Source: Candidatus Rokuibacteriota bacterium (GTDB lineage Bacteria; Methylomirabilota; Methylomirabilia; Rokubacteriales; JACPHL01). Taken from it: a stretch of DNA of 9,787 nucleotides. Within the stretch, counting starts at the first letter, position 1; each line of letters starts with the position of its first letter. The DNA is taken from positions 1 through 9,787 of the forward strand of contig JACPHL010000214.1 in NCBI GenBank assembly GCA_016188625.1. Direction: 5' to 3'. Both the position numbers and the translations under genes were made by a program. The notes beneath the pieces were generated by a model that was not told the DNA's origin, ran no database searches, and saw only the letters and a list, made by a program, of their open reading frames with translations. Shown here one piece after another: positions 641 to 8,007 of this stretch.

Positions 641-1222
641 ATGCCTGCCCGAGCCGTCTTCATGGACCTGTCCGGCACGATCTCCGACGAGGTCGGCTTC
701 GTCAACCACCTGAGCCGCTTCCGGCTGCTCCCCCGGGCCGCCGAGGCGATCCGGCTGGTCAACGACGCCGGCTGGACGGCCGTCGTCGCCACCAACCAGA
801 GCGGGATCGCTAGGGGCTACTTCCCCCCCGCGCTGCTCGATGAGGTCTACGCGGAGCTCCGGCGCCAGCTCGTCGCGGGCGGGGCGCGGCTCGACCGGAT
901 CTTGCATTGCCCCCACCACCCCACCGAGGGGCTCCCGCCCTACCGGTGCGAGTGCGACTGCCGGAAGCCCAGGCCCGGCATGCTCAAGCAGGCGGCCCAG
1001 GAGCTGGGTCTCGACCTCGCGCGCTCCTTCATGGTCGGGGACAAGATCATCGACGTCGAGGCCGGCCACCGGGCCGGGACCCGCGGGGTCCTCGTCCTCA
1101 CCGGCTACGGCCGGGGCGAGGTCACTTACACCCGCGCCTCCTGGCCGACCCAGCCGGACCACATCGCCGAGGATCTCCTCGAGGCGGTCCGGTGGATCCT
1201 CGCCGAGGGCGGGCGGGACTGA
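641..1222 (+). CDS. gmhB: HAD-IIIA phosphatase, GmhB-like (D-glycero-D-manno-heptose 1,7-bisphosphate 7-phosphatase)
   Basis: The 193-residue protein is the usual length for GmhB, the cytoplasmic enzyme that removes the 7-phosphate from heptose 1,7-bisphosphate on the way to ADP-heptose. Motif II is VVATNQSG (about 48-55), motif III is the Lys of CRKP (K109), and motif IV is GDKIID (133-138). The zinc loop is complete: C90, H92, C105 and C107 have the same spacing as C92/H94/C107/C109 of E. coli GmhB. Motif I is odd: it reads DLSGT (D9-L10-S11), so the nucleophile Asp is kept but the general acid/base Asp is Ser. The ATG at 641 is chosen because it keeps the first beta strand. A TTG at 632 in the same frame lies inside the promoter -10. 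No Shine-Dalgarno is visible, in keeping with a leaderless message. The kinase gene begins three bases after the stop. The family call is strong; activity is less certain because of S11. Confidence 0.87.
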   Translation: MPARAVFMDLSGTISDEVGFVNHLSRFRLLPRAAEAIRLVNDAGWTAVVATNQSGIARGYFPPALLDEVYAELRRQLVAGGARLDRILHCPHHPTEGLPPYRCECDCRKPRPGMLKQAAQELGLDLARSFMVGDKIIDVEAGHRAGTRGVLVLTGYGRGEVTYTRASWPTQPDHIAEDLLEAVRWILAEGGRD

Positions 1223-1225
1223 GCC

Positions 1226-2236
1226 ATGCCGGCCGACCTCGCCGGGGTCGTGGAGCGCTTCCAGGGCCGGACCGTCCTGGTCCTCGGGGACCTGGTGGCC
1301 GACGAGTACGTCTACGGGAAGCCTTCCCGGATCTCGCGCGAGGCGCCGGTCCTCATCCTCCGCTACCTCCACCGGGAGATCCGTCCGGGCGGGGCCGCCA
1401 ACGCCTGCCATAACCTCCACACCCTCGGCGCCCGCGCGATCCCGCTCGGGGTGGTCGGGGACGACGAGGCCGGGGCGCGGCTGCTCGAGTTCTTCGGGGA
1501 GCAGGGGATCCCCCGGGACGGGGTCGTCCCGCTCCCGGGGCGCGCGACGCCGGTCAAGACGCGGATCATGGCCGGCGGCTACCAGGCCACCCGCCAGCAG
1601 GTGGTGCGAGTGGACCGGGAGCCCGAAGGCCCGCCCCCGCCGCCGGCTGAGGCGCGGCTCGGCGAGGTCCTGGCGGCCTACGCCCCTCGGGCGGACGCCC
1701 TCATCCTCTCCGACTACGGCTACGGGACCATCACCCCCCGGCTCCTCGAGGCGGTGACGGCCCTGGCGGCCCGGACCGGGCTCATGGTGACGGCCGACTC
1801 CCGCTACGACCTCCTCCGCTACCGGGGGGTGACCGCCGCCACCCCCAACGAGCCCGAGGTCGAGCAGCTCCTCGGGGTCGCCCTGGACGGGGACAAGGCG
1901 CTGGAGCAGGCCGGGTGGGGGCTCTTGGAGCGCCTCGGGAGCCGTCTCCTCCTCATCACGCGAGGGTCGAAGGGGATGATCCTCTTCGAGCGGGAAGGAC
2001 GGTGTGCCTTCCTCCCGATCTACGGGGACGACCAGATCGCCGACGTCACGGGCGCCGGGGACACGGTCATCAGCGCTTTCACCCTGGCGCTCGTGGGCGG
2101 GGCCGCGCCGCTCCAGGCGGCGCGCCTCTCCAACATCGCCGGCGGGCTCGTGGTCATGAAGCGGGGGACGGCCCCGGTGACCCGGGCCGAGCTCCTCTCC
2201 GCCATCGCGCGCGATGTCCAAGATGGTCAGCCTTGA
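1226..2236 (+). CDS. rfaE1: D-glycero-beta-D-manno-heptose-7-phosphate kinase (HldA/RfaE1, PfkB family)
   Basis: This 336-residue PfkB/ribokinase-fold sugar kinase phosphorylates heptose 7-phosphate at C1 to give the 1,7-bisphosphate used by the phosphatase upstream. The N-terminal part shows [14 protein letters not shown] (about 18-31) and the substrate-site glycines PGGAANAC (54-61). The C-terminal PfkB signature DVTGAGDT (273-280) holds the anion-hole glycines and the catalytic base D279. In E. coli the same activity is the N-terminal half of the bifunctional HldE; here it is a separate gene. The ATG at 1226 lies three bases after the phosphatase stop. The 3' end overlaps the adenylyltransferase gene by 23 bases in another reading frame, which suggests coupled translation. 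No truncation or missing key residue was seen. The heptose substrate is inferred from the neighbouring rfaE2 and waaC and from resemblance to HldE. Confidence 0.93.
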
Positions 2237-2717
2237 GGAGGCCCGCGCCCTCGCCGAGGCCGCCCGGGCCGAGGGCAAGCGCCTGGTGCTGGCCAACGGC
2301 TGCTTCGACCTCCTCCACGTCGGGCACGTCCGCTACCTGGCCGGGGCCAAGGCCCTCGGGGATCTCCTCGTGGTCGGGGTCAACTCCGACGCGGCGGTGG
2401 CGCGGCTGAAGGGCCCGGGCCGTCCCATCGTCGGCGAGGCCGAGCGGGCCGAGATCGTCGGCGCCCTGGGCTGCGTGGACCACGTGGTGATCTTCGACGA
2501 GCTGACCGCGGACCGCCTCGTCGAGATCCTGCGGCCCGCGGTTCACGCCAAGGGGACGGACTACACCCCGGGGACGATCCCCGAGCGGGCCACGGTCCAC
2601 GCGGCGGGCGGGAAGGTCGCCGTCACGGGCGATCCCAAAGGCCACTCCACCCGGGACCTCATCGCCATCATCCTGGCGCGCTTCGGTCAGGGATGCGGAT
2701 CGCCATCGTCAAGCTGA
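2214..2717 (+). CDS. rfaE2: D-glycero-beta-D-manno-heptose 1-phosphate adenylyltransferase (HldC/RfaE2)
   Basis: This 167-residue cytidylyltransferase-fold enzyme transfers AMP from ATP to heptose 1-phosphate, giving ADP-D-glycero-beta-D-manno-heptose. The nucleotide-binding motif [15 protein letters not shown] spans about 28-42, with the HxGH pair H35/H38. RLKGPGRPI follows, as does an ISSTxxR-like motif in the form HSTRDLI (about 144-150). It corresponds to the C-terminal half of E. coli HldE. The start at 2214 lies inside the end of the kinase gene, and an in-frame ATG at 2223 is an alternative. Neither has a clear ribosome site, so initiation may rely on ribosomes finishing the kinase gene. 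The last residues after the catalytic domain (GCGSPSSS) lie in a 25-base overlap with waaC and are probably not functional. Confidence 0.92.
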
Positions 2718-3709
2718 GCTCGCTCGGGGACGTCGTCCACACCCTCCCGGTCCTCCACGCCCTCCGCCGCCACCTCCCCGACGCGCACCTCGGCTGGATC
2801 GTCGAGAGGCGCGAGCAGGCGATCCTGGAGGGGCACCCGGAGCTGGACGAGCTCATCCCGGTGGATACCCGCCTCTGGCGGCGGGAGTTCCGCCGGCCGC
2901 GCGGGGCCCGCACCGTCTTCGTCAAGGTCCGCGGCCTCGTCCGGCGCCTGGCCGCCTCGGGCTTCGACGCGGCCCTGGACCTCCAGGGGCTCTGGAAGAG
3001 CGGGATCATCACGGCCCTGACGCGGGCGCCGCTCCGGATCGGGTTCGCCGCGGGGTTCTGCCGTGAGCGGGCGAGCGCGCTGTTCACCAACCGGCGGGTC
3101 CGCCCTCCCGACCCGGCCGCCCACGTGGTGGAGCAGAACCTCGCCCTCCTCGCCCCGCTCGGGGTCCCGGTCACCGAGGTCGCCTTCCGCCTCCCGAGCC
3201 CGCCCGGGCCCGCGGCGGCCGTCGCCCGCTCCCTCGAGGCCGAAGGCGTCAAGCCGCGCGATCTCCTGGTCGCCCTCAACCCCGGGGCCGGCGGCGACCC
3301 CAAGCGCTGGGCGGTCGGGGCGTACCGGCGGGTCGCGGCTGAGCTGGCGGTCCGGTTCGGGGCGCGGGTCCTGCTCCTCTGGGGGCCGGGCGAGGAGCCG
3401 CTCGCCCGCGCCATCGCCCACGGGATGGAGCCGCCCCCCCTGATCCCGCCGCCGACCTCGATCCCCGAGCTGGTGGCGCTCCTCGGCCGCGCCGCGCTCG
3501 TGGTGGGCGGGGACACGGGCCCGATCCACATCGCGGCGGCCCTCGGGGTCCCCACCCTCGGCCTGTACGGCCCGACCAGCGGGCGCCGGAACGGCCCCTA
3601 CGGCGCGCGGACCCTGACGATCCAGAGCCCGACCGGGCGCATGGAGGGGATCTCGGTCGAGGCGGTGGTGGCGGGCGCCGCGGCCCTCCTCCGGAGGGCG
3701 GGTGCGTGA
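2693..3709 (+). CDS. waaC: Lipopolysaccharide heptosyltransferase I (GT9 family)
   Basis: This 338-residue GT-B glycosyltransferase of family 9 transfers heptose from ADP-heptose to Kdo on lipid A at the inner membrane's cytoplasmic face. The N-terminus [19 protein letters not shown] places Asp at position 13, matching the catalytic D13 of E. coli Waa[11 protein letters not shown] follows at about 98-107. The C-terminal nucleotide-sugar domain starts near [11 protein letters not shown] (196-206, with K204 at the donor-phosphate lysine position). It contains the GT9 signature [13 protein letters not shown] (from G273, with D274) and LYGPTS. Heptosyltransferase I is preferred over II because of the N-terminus, the LDLQGLWKS segment and the linkage to rfaE1/rfaE2. 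It overlaps rfaE2 by 25 bases and its TGA is shared with the next gene's GTG. Confidence 0.9.
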
Positions 3710-4665
3710 ACTGCCTCGTCACCGGCGCCGCCGGTTTCATCGGCTCCCACCTCGTCGAGGCGCTCCTGGGCGAGGGGCACCGGGTGATCGGGGTGGATTG
3801 CTTCAGCGACTTCTACGCCCCGGGCCTCAAGGAGGCCAACCTCGCGGCGGTCCTCGGGCACCCGCGCTTTACCCTCCACCGCCGCGACCTCCTGGAGCTC
3901 GACCTCCCGGCGCTGCTCGGGGAGGCGGAGGTGGTCTTCCACCTGGCGGCCCAGGCCGGGGTCCGCTCGAGCTGGGGGCGCGAGTTCTCCGTCTACACGC
4001 ACCAGAACGTCCTGGCGACGCAGCGGCTCCTCGAGGCCGCGCGGGGGCGGCCGCTCCGGAAGTTCGTCTTCGCCTCCTCCTCCGCGGTCTACGGCGACTC
4101 CGAGCTCCCCATGCGCGAGGAGAGCCCCACGCGCCCGCTGTCGCCCTACGGGGTCACCAAGCTGGCGGCTGAGCACCTCTGCCGGCTCTACTGGGTGGCC
4201 CACGGGGTCCCCGTCCTCTCCCTCCGCTACTTCACCGTCTTCGGGCCGCGCCAGCGGCCGGACATGGCCTTCCACCGCTTCCTCCGGGCCCTCCTGGACG
4301 GGCGGCCGATCACGCTCTACGGCGACGGCCGGCAGACGCGCGACTTCACCTACGTCTCGGACATCGTGGAGGCGACCCGCCGGGCGGCCTGGGGCGAGGC
4401 CGTGGGGGAGCTCGTCAACGTCGCGGGCGGCGCCCGGGTCGAGCTGCTCGCCGTGATCCGCGAGCTCGAGGCCCTGACCGGGCGGCGGGCCGCGATCGAG
4501 ACGCGGCCGGCCCCGGCCGGGGAGATGCCCCACACCTACGCCGACATCGCCAAGGCGCGGGGCCTCCTGGGCTACGAGCCGAAGATGGGGCTCCTCGATG
4601 GTCTGCGGGAGGAGCTGGCCTGGCTGGAGGCGCTCCGGGCGCAGGGCGGGGTCCCCGATGCGTAA
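3706..4665 (+). CDS. NAD-dependent sugar-nucleotide epimerase/dehydratase (extended SDR, GalE/UDP-glucuronate epimerase-like)
   Basis: This 319-residue extended short-chain dehydrogenase has the Rossmann motif GAAGFIG (7-13), FHLAAQAGV, the active-site serines in ASSSAVYG (S124-S126), and the catalytic pair Y148 and K152 in SPYGVTK. Late motifs LYGDGRQTRDFTYVSD and LVNVAGG are typical of UDP-sugar 4-epimerases. The segment DCFSDFYAPGLKEANL resembles UDP-glucuronate 4-epimerases. It does not look like HldD, although its position in an ADP-heptose operon makes that function worth asking about. Start: GTG at 3706 overlaps the waaC stop as GTGA, and GGAGGG at 3693-3698 lies seven bases upstream. 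The end overlaps the next gene by eight bases. Substrate is unproven; a role in preparing a sugar for the LPS core or surface glycan is inferred. Confidence 0.87.
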   Translation: MNCLVTGAAGFIGSHLVEALLGEGHRVIGVDCFSDFYAPGLKEANLAAVLGHPRFTLHRRDLLELDLPALLGEAEVVFHLAAQAGVRSSWGREFSVYTHQNVLATQRLLEAARGRPLRKFVFASSSAVYGDSELPMREESPTRPLSPYGVTKLAAEHLCRLYWVAHGVPVLSLRYFTVFGPRQRPDMAFHRFLRALLDGRPITLYGDGRQTRDFTYVSDIVEATRRAAWGEAVGELVNVAGGARVELLAVIRELEALTGRRAAIETRPAPAGEMPHTYADIAKARGLLGYEPKMGLLDGLREELAWLEALRAQGGVPDA

Positions 4666-5434
4666 CCGGCTCTCGGTCGCCGTCATCGCCCTGAACGAGG
4701 AGGAGCGGCTCCGGGCCTGTCTCGAGAGCGTGGCCTGGGCGGACGAGATCGTCGTGGTGGACGCGGGGTCGAGCGACAAGACGGCCGAGATCGCCCGGGA
4801 GTTCACCGACCGCGTCCTCTTCCACCCCTGGGAGGGGTACGCCGCCCAGAAGAACTACGCCCTGGCCCAGAGCCGCCACCCCTGGCTCCTCTCCCTGGAC
4901 GCCGACGAGCTGGTCTCCCCGGCGCTCCGCGCCGAGATCGAGGAGGTGCTCGAGCGGGACGGGCCGGCCGACGGCTACCAGATCCCCCGCCAGAACATCT
5001 TCCTCGGGCGCGCCGTCCGCCACGGGACCCTGTACCCGGACTACCAGCTCCGCCTCTTCCGCCGCGGCCTCGGGGCCTTCGTGCCGACCAGCGTCCACGA
5101 GTCCGTCCGGGTCGAGGGCCGGACGGCGCGCCTCGCCGCCCCGCTGATCCACGAGAGCTACCGGAGCCTGGATGAGTTCGTGACCCGGGCCAACCGCTAC
5201 TCGACCCTCGCGGCGCGCGAGCTCGGCGCCCAGGGGCGGGGAGGGGGGTGGACCGATCTCCTGCTCCGCCCGGCCTGGCGGTTCTTCTCCATGTACATTC
5301 TCCATCAGGGCTTCCTGGACGGCTGGCGGGGGCTCCTCCTGGCGATCCTCTATGCCTACTACGTCTTCCTGCGGGCGGCCAAGGTCCGGGAGGCCTCCCT
5401 CCAGGACCCGGAGCCCGGCGGGGTAGTCCAGTGA
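4658..5434 (+). CDS. Family 2 glycosyltransferase, LPS core type (WaaE/KdtX-like)
   Basis: This 258-residue GT-A enzyme opens with VAVIALNEEERLRACLESV (about 7-25). It carries the nucleotide-binding VVVDAGSSDKT (D35) and the metal-binding DAD motif in SLDADE (D81 and D83). The acceptor half contains IHESYRSLDEFV. A hydrophobic, probably membrane-associated C-terminal stretch, HQGFLDGWRGLLLAILYAYY, is typical of the beta-1,4-glucosyltransferase (WaaE/KdtX) branch. In that family the enzyme adds a hexose to the first core heptose, which fits the linkage to waaC and kdsB. The ATG at 4658 is preferred because the GT2 domain starts directly after it. The frame is open back to 4598, but that extra 20 residues lie inside the epimerase gene and have no domain content. 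A GGGCGGGG-like ribosome site precedes it. Donor and acceptor are inferred, not shown. Confidence 0.88.
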   Translation: MRNRLSVAVIALNEEERLRACLESVAWADEIVVVDAGSSDKTAEIAREFTDRVLFHPWEGYAAQKNYALAQSRHPWLLSLDADELVSPALRAEIEEVLERDGPADGYQIPRQNIFLGRAVRHGTLYPDYQLRLFRRGLGAFVPTSVHESVRVEGRTARLAAPLIHESYRSLDEFVTRANRYSTLAARELGAQGRGGGWTDLLLRPAWRFFSMYILHQGFLDGWRGLLLAILYAYYVFLRAAKVREASLQDPEPGGVVQ

Positions 5435-6156
5435 GCCGAGCGGTCGCGATCATCCCGGCGCGCTACGCCTCCACGCGCTTCCCGGGGAAGGTCCTGGCGG
5501 AGGTCGCGGGGAAGCCGTTGCTCCAGCACGTCTGGGAGCGCGCCCGGATGCTCCGGACGGCGGAGGCGGTCCTGATCGCCACCGACGACGAGCGGATCGC
5601 CCGAGCGGCGCGGGGGTTCGGCGCCGAGGCGGTCCTGACCCGGGACGATCACCCGAGCGGGACCGATCGGGTCGCCGAGGTGGCCCGCTCGCTCGCGGCC
5701 GAACTGGTCGTCAACCTCCAGGGGGACGAGCCGGGCTTCGACGGGAAGGCGGTGGACGAGCTGGTGGATCTCCTGGCCGCCTCCCCCGGGGTCCCCATGG
5801 GGACCCTGGCCCACCCGATCGGCGAGCCGGCCGAGCTCGCCGACCCCAACGCCGTGAAGGTGGTGGTGGACCTGGACGGCCGGGCCCTCTACTTCTCCAG
5901 GGCGCCGATCCCAGCGCGGCGCCAGGGCGCGGGGCAGGCGCTCCGGCACATCGGGATCTACGTCTTCCGGCGGGCGTTCCTCCTGGAGTTCGCGGCCTGG
6001 CCGCCGACCCCGCTGGAGCAGGCCGAGGGGCTCGAGCAGCTCCGGGCCCTCGAGCACGGCCGGCCGATCCGCGTCCTCGTCACCCCGCACCCCTCGGTCG
6101 GGGTGGACACCCCGGCGGACCTCGAGCGCCTCCGCCGGCTCCTGGCGGCGGGATGA
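5431..6156 (+). CDS. kdsB: 3-deoxy-manno-octulosonate cytidylyltransferase (CMP-Kdo synthetase)
   Basis: This 241-residue enzyme activates Kdo with CTP to CMP-Kdo, the donor for the Kdo transferase that primes the LPS core. The N-terminal CTP loop reads IIPARYASTRFPGK (7-20). NLQGDEP (Q97, D99) is the family metal/nucleotide motif. DPNAVKVV, RHIGIYVFRR, LEQAEGLEQLRALEHG and the terminal GVDTPADLE complete the KdsB pattern in the expected order and length. The GTG at 5431 is preferred: it overlaps the glycosyltransferase stop as GTGA and starts immediately before the first beta strand. The frame is open upstream to 5248, but this would only add translated glycosyltransferase sequence. Its own TGA overlaps an ATG (ATGA at 6153-6156) that opens a small ORF leading to trpS. 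No Kdo synthase or Kdo transferase gene is in the window. Confidence 0.94.
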   Translation: MSRAVAIIPARYASTRFPGKVLAEVAGKPLLQHVWERARMLRTAEAVLIATDDERIARAARGFGAEAVLTRDDHPSGTDRVAEVARSLAAELVVNLQGDEPGFDGKAVDELVDLLAASPGVPMGTLAHPIGEPAELADPNAVKVVVDLDGRALYFSRAPIPARRQGAGQALRHIGIYVFRRAFLLEFAAWPPTPLEQAEGLEQLRALEHGRPIRVLVTPHPSVGVDTPADLERLRRLLAAG

Positions 6157-7243: not shown

Positions 7244-8007
7244 CGGCCCTCGAGACCCCGTCCGCGCCGCTGACCGTGCGTCTCGAGGAGTTCGAGGGGC
7301 CGCTCGACCTCCTCCTCCACCTGGCCCGCACCCAGGAGATCGACCTCGCCCGGCTCCCCATCCGGCGGATCACCGACCAGTACCTGGCCTACCTCGAGGC
7401 GGTCGAGTTCCGCCACCTCGAGACGGCGGGCGAGTTCCTGGTCCTGGCCGCGACCCTGATCTACCTCAAGTCGAAGCTCCTGCTCCCCCAGCCCGAGGCC
7501 GACGAGGCGGAGGCGCTGGACGAGGAGGCCGAAGCCCTCCGGCGCGAGCTCGAGGCGCGCCTTGCCGCCTACGCCCGGATCAAGGCGCTGGGGGCCTGGC
7601 TCGGGGAGCGCGAGGCGCTCCAGGCGCAGGTCTACGTGCGGGCCTGGAGCGGGCTGCCGGAGCCGGACTACCTGCCGCTCGAGGCGGTCAGCCTCTGGGA
7701 CCTGACCGAGGCCTATCGCCGCTTCCTGGCGCAGCTGGCCGAGGAGGAGCCGGTGCGCGAGGTCGGCCCCGAGCCCCCCTCGCTGCTCGGGCGGATGGCC
7801 GAGATCCTCGGCCAGCTCGAGCACTCCTGGTACGTCCTCTTCACGGCCCTCCTGGGGGCGAGCCCCCCGCGGGCCGAGGTGGTCGTGACCCTCCTGGCCC
7901 TGCTGGAGCTCGTGCGCCTCCGGCAGATCCGGGCCGTGCAGCGCGAGCCGTTCGGCGAGATCGTCATCGAGCGGGTGCCCCGCGCGGAGGTGCAGGATGG
8001 GACCTGA
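7240..8007 (+). CDS. scpA: Segregation and condensation protein A (kleisin subunit of Smc-ScpAB)
   Basis: The 255-residue kleisin bridges Smc heads in bacterial condensin and acts in chromosome compaction and segregation on the nucleoid. The N-terminal signature FEGPLDLLLHLARTQEIDL (about 18-36) is diagnostic, followed by ITDQYLAYL and FLVLAATLIYLKSKLLLP. A Glu/Ala-rich, likely coiled or flexible middle segment follows. The C-terminal winged-helix region ends with LLALLELVRLRQIRAVQREPFGEIVIE, which would contact an Smc head. The ATG at 7240 is preferred: it overlaps the trpS stop (ATGA), has GGTGGGG five bases upstream, and directly precedes the conserved domain. The frame is open to 7033, but that extension is trpS read in another frame. 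It overlaps scpB by 11 bases. No smc gene is visible. Confidence 0.94.
   Translation: MTALETPSAPLTVRLEEFEGPLDLLLHLARTQEIDLARLPIRRITDQYLAYLEAVEFRHLETAGEFLVLAATLIYLKSKLLLPQPEADEAEALDEEAEALRRELEARLAAYARIKALGAWLGEREALQAQVYVRAWSGLPEPDYLPLEAVSLWDLTEAYRRFLAQLAEEEPVREVGPEPPSLLGRMAEILGQLEHSWYVLFTALLGASPPRAEVVVTLLALLELVRLRQIRAVQREPFGEIVIERVPRAEVQDGT

Follow-up and report, generated by a model that had tools for sequence, protein, structure and literature searches.

A GmhB-like phosphatase with a DLSGT motif I in the heptose operon of a Candidatus Rokuibacteriota bacterium

The window (the whole 9,787-nucleotide stretch of DNA analysed) carries a heptose operon whose gmhB-like gene encodes a HAD phosphatase with motif I DLSGT in place of DRDGT. 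We tentatively read it as the sole recognisable GmhB orthologue of its 84%-complete genome, bearing a real and lineage-specific change of the active site and acting as a slow or altered phosphatase based on D9, for which we would give slightly less than even odds (about 0.48). Judged from its sequence, the protein has the descent, fold and context of a GmhB orthologue and fails one motif-defining feature; we describe it as a variant, and claim no GmhB activity for it. The features on which the argument relies are as follows.

641 to 1222, plus strand: gmhB-like gene for a HAD-IIIA phosphatase of 193 amino acids, an intact open reading frame with its ATG at 641
665 to 679, plus strand: motif I, D9-L10-S11-G12-T13 (DLSGT for DRDGT), from the translation and the homologue alignment
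671 to 673, plus strand: codon TCC for Ser11, where 185 of 186 homologues with motif I aligned have the general acid/base Asp
791 to 793, plus strand: motif II, Thr51 (TNQSG), from the alignment
908 to 961, plus strand: zinc-binding loop, C90-x-H92 ... C105-x-C107, in conserved alignment columns
965 to 967, plus strand: motif III, K109, just after the zinc-binding loop, in conserved columns
1037 to 1054, plus strand: motif IV, G133-D134-KII-D138, in conserved alignment columns
1226 to 2236, plus strand: HldA-like heptose 7-phosphate kinase (TIGR02198, E 3.2e-88, under the cut-off; syntenic in 14 genomes of the same order)
2214 to 2717, plus strand: HldC-like heptose 1-phosphate adenylyltransferase (TIGR02199, E 6.7e-50, under the cut-off; synteny)
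2693 to 3709, plus strand: WaaC, heptosyltransferase I (TIGR02193, over the cut-off; synteny)

The frame starting with the ATG at 641 translates as MPARAVFMDLSGTISDEVGF. The initial annotation had reported that D9 is present (GAC, 665–667) and that position 11 is a Ser, exactly as found in the translation, and had overlooked a second change: Arg10 is also lost, with Leu (CTG, 668–670) in its place, so that DRDG becomes DLSG. Its picture of an otherwise intact GmhB-like phosphatase in a heptose operon was equally borne out, as the nucleophile D9, T51, K109, D134 and D138, which cover motifs II to IV, and the four zinc ligands C90, H92, C105 and C107 are all kept in register with the homologues. 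The protein exceeds the NCBIfam cut-offs of TIGR01656 (histidinol-phosphatase-type) and TIGR01662 (HAD-IIIA). Its top NCBIfam family is NF006506 (GmhB, E 4.8e-47), yet its score stays under the curated cut-off (159.8 of 178 bits), as does that for TIGR00213 (119.3 of 149.6 bits); these low GmhB scores may be a phylum-wide trait and not linked to the substitution. An AF2 model (ColabFold, 43 sequences) reached a mean pLDDT of 95, and its nearest solved fold was E. coli GmhB 3l8e (TM 0.86/0.90), with B. bronchiseptica GmhB also among the top PDB matches.

The operon gmhB-hldA-hldC-waaC keeps the same order in the 14 same-order relatives compared, and the longer arrangement gmhB-hldA-hldC-waaC-gt2-trpS-scpA-scpB-rluB is common to genomes of the order wherever contigs are long enough. 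In the window, a gene for a NAD-dependent sugar epimerase/dehydratase (3706–4665) is inserted between waaC and gt2, and kdsB (5431–6156) between gt2 and trpS, and neither gene was matched in the corresponding operon regions of the 14 relatives compared from the order. No gmhA (TIGR00441) is recognisable in the own genome; many genomes of the order that retain gmhB-hldA-hldC-waaC likewise lack the gene, which is present in most other families of the class.

How rare the motif is among homologues was assessed in a bacterial alignment of 111 sequences with motif I (50 GmhB orthologues of the same order, others of the same class, paralogues, and 42 from genome_contigs) and in 75 homologues from viral contigs, with genome_contigs and the viral contigs making up all the sampling beyond the phylum. 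DRDG is found in all 111 bacterial sequences, and residue 10 is therefore Arg in every one of them, against Leu in the window protein. The viral-contig homologues have Asp at +2 in 74 cases and Asn in one, so that among the 186 homologues with motif I aligned this residue is Asp in 185, Asn in 1 and Ser in none. The Asn-bearing exception is a distant homologue with motif I DMNGV; an initial scan of the viral contigs with the single window protein had given no matches. The nearest relatives, all from the same order and 55–63% identical, have DRDG without exception. Membership of a Ser-bearing sister branch was rejected, as none appeared among the 111 bacterial and 75 viral-contig homologues. 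On the sequences compared, Ser11 is an isolated substitution of one lineage and not a trait of a wider branch, and the alteration of both otherwise invariant positions, 10 and 11, is not attributable to chance. The family of this organism is represented by one genome in the compared set, with no relative above 63% identity; the change is for this reason not datable, and one genome that lacks close relatives is not enough to show that it is maintained.

Codons 10–11 differ from those of the 50 same-order relatives by three to five bases in every case (four in 46 of the 50), which excludes a single miscall as the cause and makes a simple sequencing error behind DLSG unlikely at the level of the nucleotide comparison. 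The initial annotation had reasoned that close homologues with DxDGT would point to an isolated error or mutation: all available ones do have DxDG and the substitution is isolated, but a read error fits poorly with so many differing bases. A broader fault of assembly or sequencing affecting both codons seems to us quite improbable. It would agree with the occurrence of the change in one genome only, a draft of 344 contigs and 84% completeness in which a NagD-like gene elsewhere looks frameshifted, and with the fact that two compensating indels plus one substitution yield the sequence from an ancestral CGT codon for Arg, such as many relatives have. This path from CGT-GAC is formally possible, by error or by evolution alike. 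The number of differences from all 50 relatives argues nevertheless against an artefact, as do the retention of G or C at the third position of both codons and the state of the 9.8-kb contig, whose genes show no frameshift and, where checked, are full length in comparison with relatives. The changed codons form a short inverted repeat, GGAC-CT-GTCC, at 664–673, which could fit a template-switch mutation or be due to chance. A local donor of the DLSGT segment was also considered and rejected, as a search of the own genome gave no other close copy. The NagD-like HAD gene mentioned above (FALDLDGSVWAG...) lies on another contig at about 7457–7753, minus strand, and is apparently frameshifted, with its motif III/IV region in another frame, either through an assembly error or as a broken gene.

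Relaxed evolution of the gmhB-like gene was rejected as well, since its divergence matches that of its neighbours. Its distance ratio of 1.56 lies within the 1.14–2.03 of eight other genes, and its share of altered invariant sites, 12.7%, within their 1.1–18.3%; with such values no decay of the gene is visible. Residues 10–20 hold 5 of the 10 altered invariant sites, at P 0.001 in a post hoc test that gives P 0.02 once residues 10 and 11 are excluded. The further changes of this loop are conservative (L14I, E16D and Y20F), and the clustering is a weak, after-the-fact hint of co-adaptation in the stretch following motif I.

A backup phosphatase was sought in the organism's own 2.6-Mb genome of 344 contigs, with the window protein, NF006506 and TIGR01662 as queries, and no second GmhB was found in this 84%-complete assembly. 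The next-best matches were weak HADs, one of them KdsC-like; the other HAD proteins of the genome also comprise IA-type members and a NagD-like protein with DLDG. No close NagD-type substitute emerged either. Thanks to another enzyme, gmhB mutants of E. coli and Klebsiella retain LPS with heptose, the loss of gmhB being only partly limiting in both (PMC9302095; PMC2900299), so that a poor GmhB could be tolerated. The proposal that some other phosphatase performs the step is weakened by the lack of a second GmhB, albeit in an incomplete genome and with a partial substitute at hand in E. coli. We consider it unlikely that the phosphatase is inactive, or nearly so, with a different enzyme acting on the heptose bisphosphate and the gene encoding a binding or structural part or being recently defunct. 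Such a loss would be in keeping with the disappearance of both the general acid/base and the invariant Arg10, with the enterobacterial mutants and with the other HAD proteins encoded in the genome; it is however at odds with the failed search for a second GmhB, and with a gene that diverges normally, has no stops and keeps its zinc site and remaining catalytic residues.

In the HAD superfamily, Mg2+ is held by the first Asp and motif IV and by a backbone carbonyl contributed by the +2 residue, so that Ser11 would leave the metal site formally intact. HAD phosphatases use their first Asp as nucleophile and their second as general acid-base (PMC8069645; PMC12715507). For a slow or altered GmhB, we propose that DRDGT became DLSGT in one lineage while the gene stayed in its ancestral operon. 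D9 would still attack the 7-phosphate, with Mg2+ held by D9, the backbone carbonyl of residue 11 (for which Ser would be as good as Asp) and D134. Without the Asp11 carboxylate, both the protonation of the leaving alkoxide and the activation of the water that hydrolyses the aspartyl-phosphate would be weaker; a proton might come from water or from the substrate phosphate, and the enzyme would be slow, with a flux still enough for heptose synthesis. This reading draws on the intact frame, the retention of the other catalytic residues, the synteny, the neighbour-like divergence and the GmhB fold, and also on the absence of another GmhB from the incomplete genome, the LHPP precedent and the clustering of changes in the loop. 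On the other hand, the unactivated phosphate at C7 of the sugar should need acid-base catalysis by the +2 Asp; kinetic studies of HAD phosphatases mutated at this Asp did not turn up in the literature searched. A GmhB lineage that truly dispenses with the HAD general acid/base, using Ser through another proton route or on another phosphate substrate, appears doubtful; if true, it would be an independent parallel of LHPP within the zinc-loop HAD-IIIA family.

Bonds of the P-N and pyrophosphate type have better leaving groups than the heptose C7 alkoxide. LHPP, which has Ser at +2, hydrolyses precisely these bonds (PMC11277029), and the initial annotation was right in citing it as a precedent for Ser at the acid/base site. 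By analogy, the window protein might be an active enzyme whose substrate has changed to one with a better leaving group, in an anomeric, acyl or pyrophosphate-type bond, although we find this rather improbable. The pairing of Ser with such substrates in LHPP (PMC11277029) and the clustered changes in the loop following motif I would suit the idea, but the gene remains beside hldA, hldC and waaC, which require the GmhB step, and none of the relatives examined has the same shift.

Whatever the case, a family name alone is unsafe ground for annotating catalytic competence. If the enzyme is real and active, it offers a natural test of how dispensable the second HAD Asp is on an unactivated sugar phosphate, in what is apparently the only copy; if inactive, it points to an alternative phosphatase, like the E. 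coli enzyme that partly replaces GmhB. Among known systems, GmhB (D-glycero-D-manno-heptose 1,7-bisphosphate 7-phosphatase; E. coli 2gmw/3l8e and B. bronchiseptica 3l8h) shares with the window protein the fold, length, zinc ligands, motifs II–IV, nucleophile and heptose operon, and differs in having DRDGT where the latter has DLSGT and leaves the cut-offs of NF006506 and TIGR00213 unreached. The N-terminal histidinol-phosphatase of HisB belongs to the same HAD-IIIA subfamily and is a structural match (2fps/2fpr), but its profile match is weaker (E 1e-15 to 1e-17) and the operon of the window is for heptose, not histidine. Mammalian LHPP (phospholysine phosphohistidine pyrophosphate phosphatase) has the same combination of an Asp nucleophile and a Ser at +2, yet it belongs to the NagD clade, whose PF13344 matches the window protein weakly and under its cut-off (E 0.03, 15.4 of 27 bits), whereas the latter is of the short, zinc-loop GmhB type. 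The window protein is probably a known enzyme in a slow or altered form rather than a new system.
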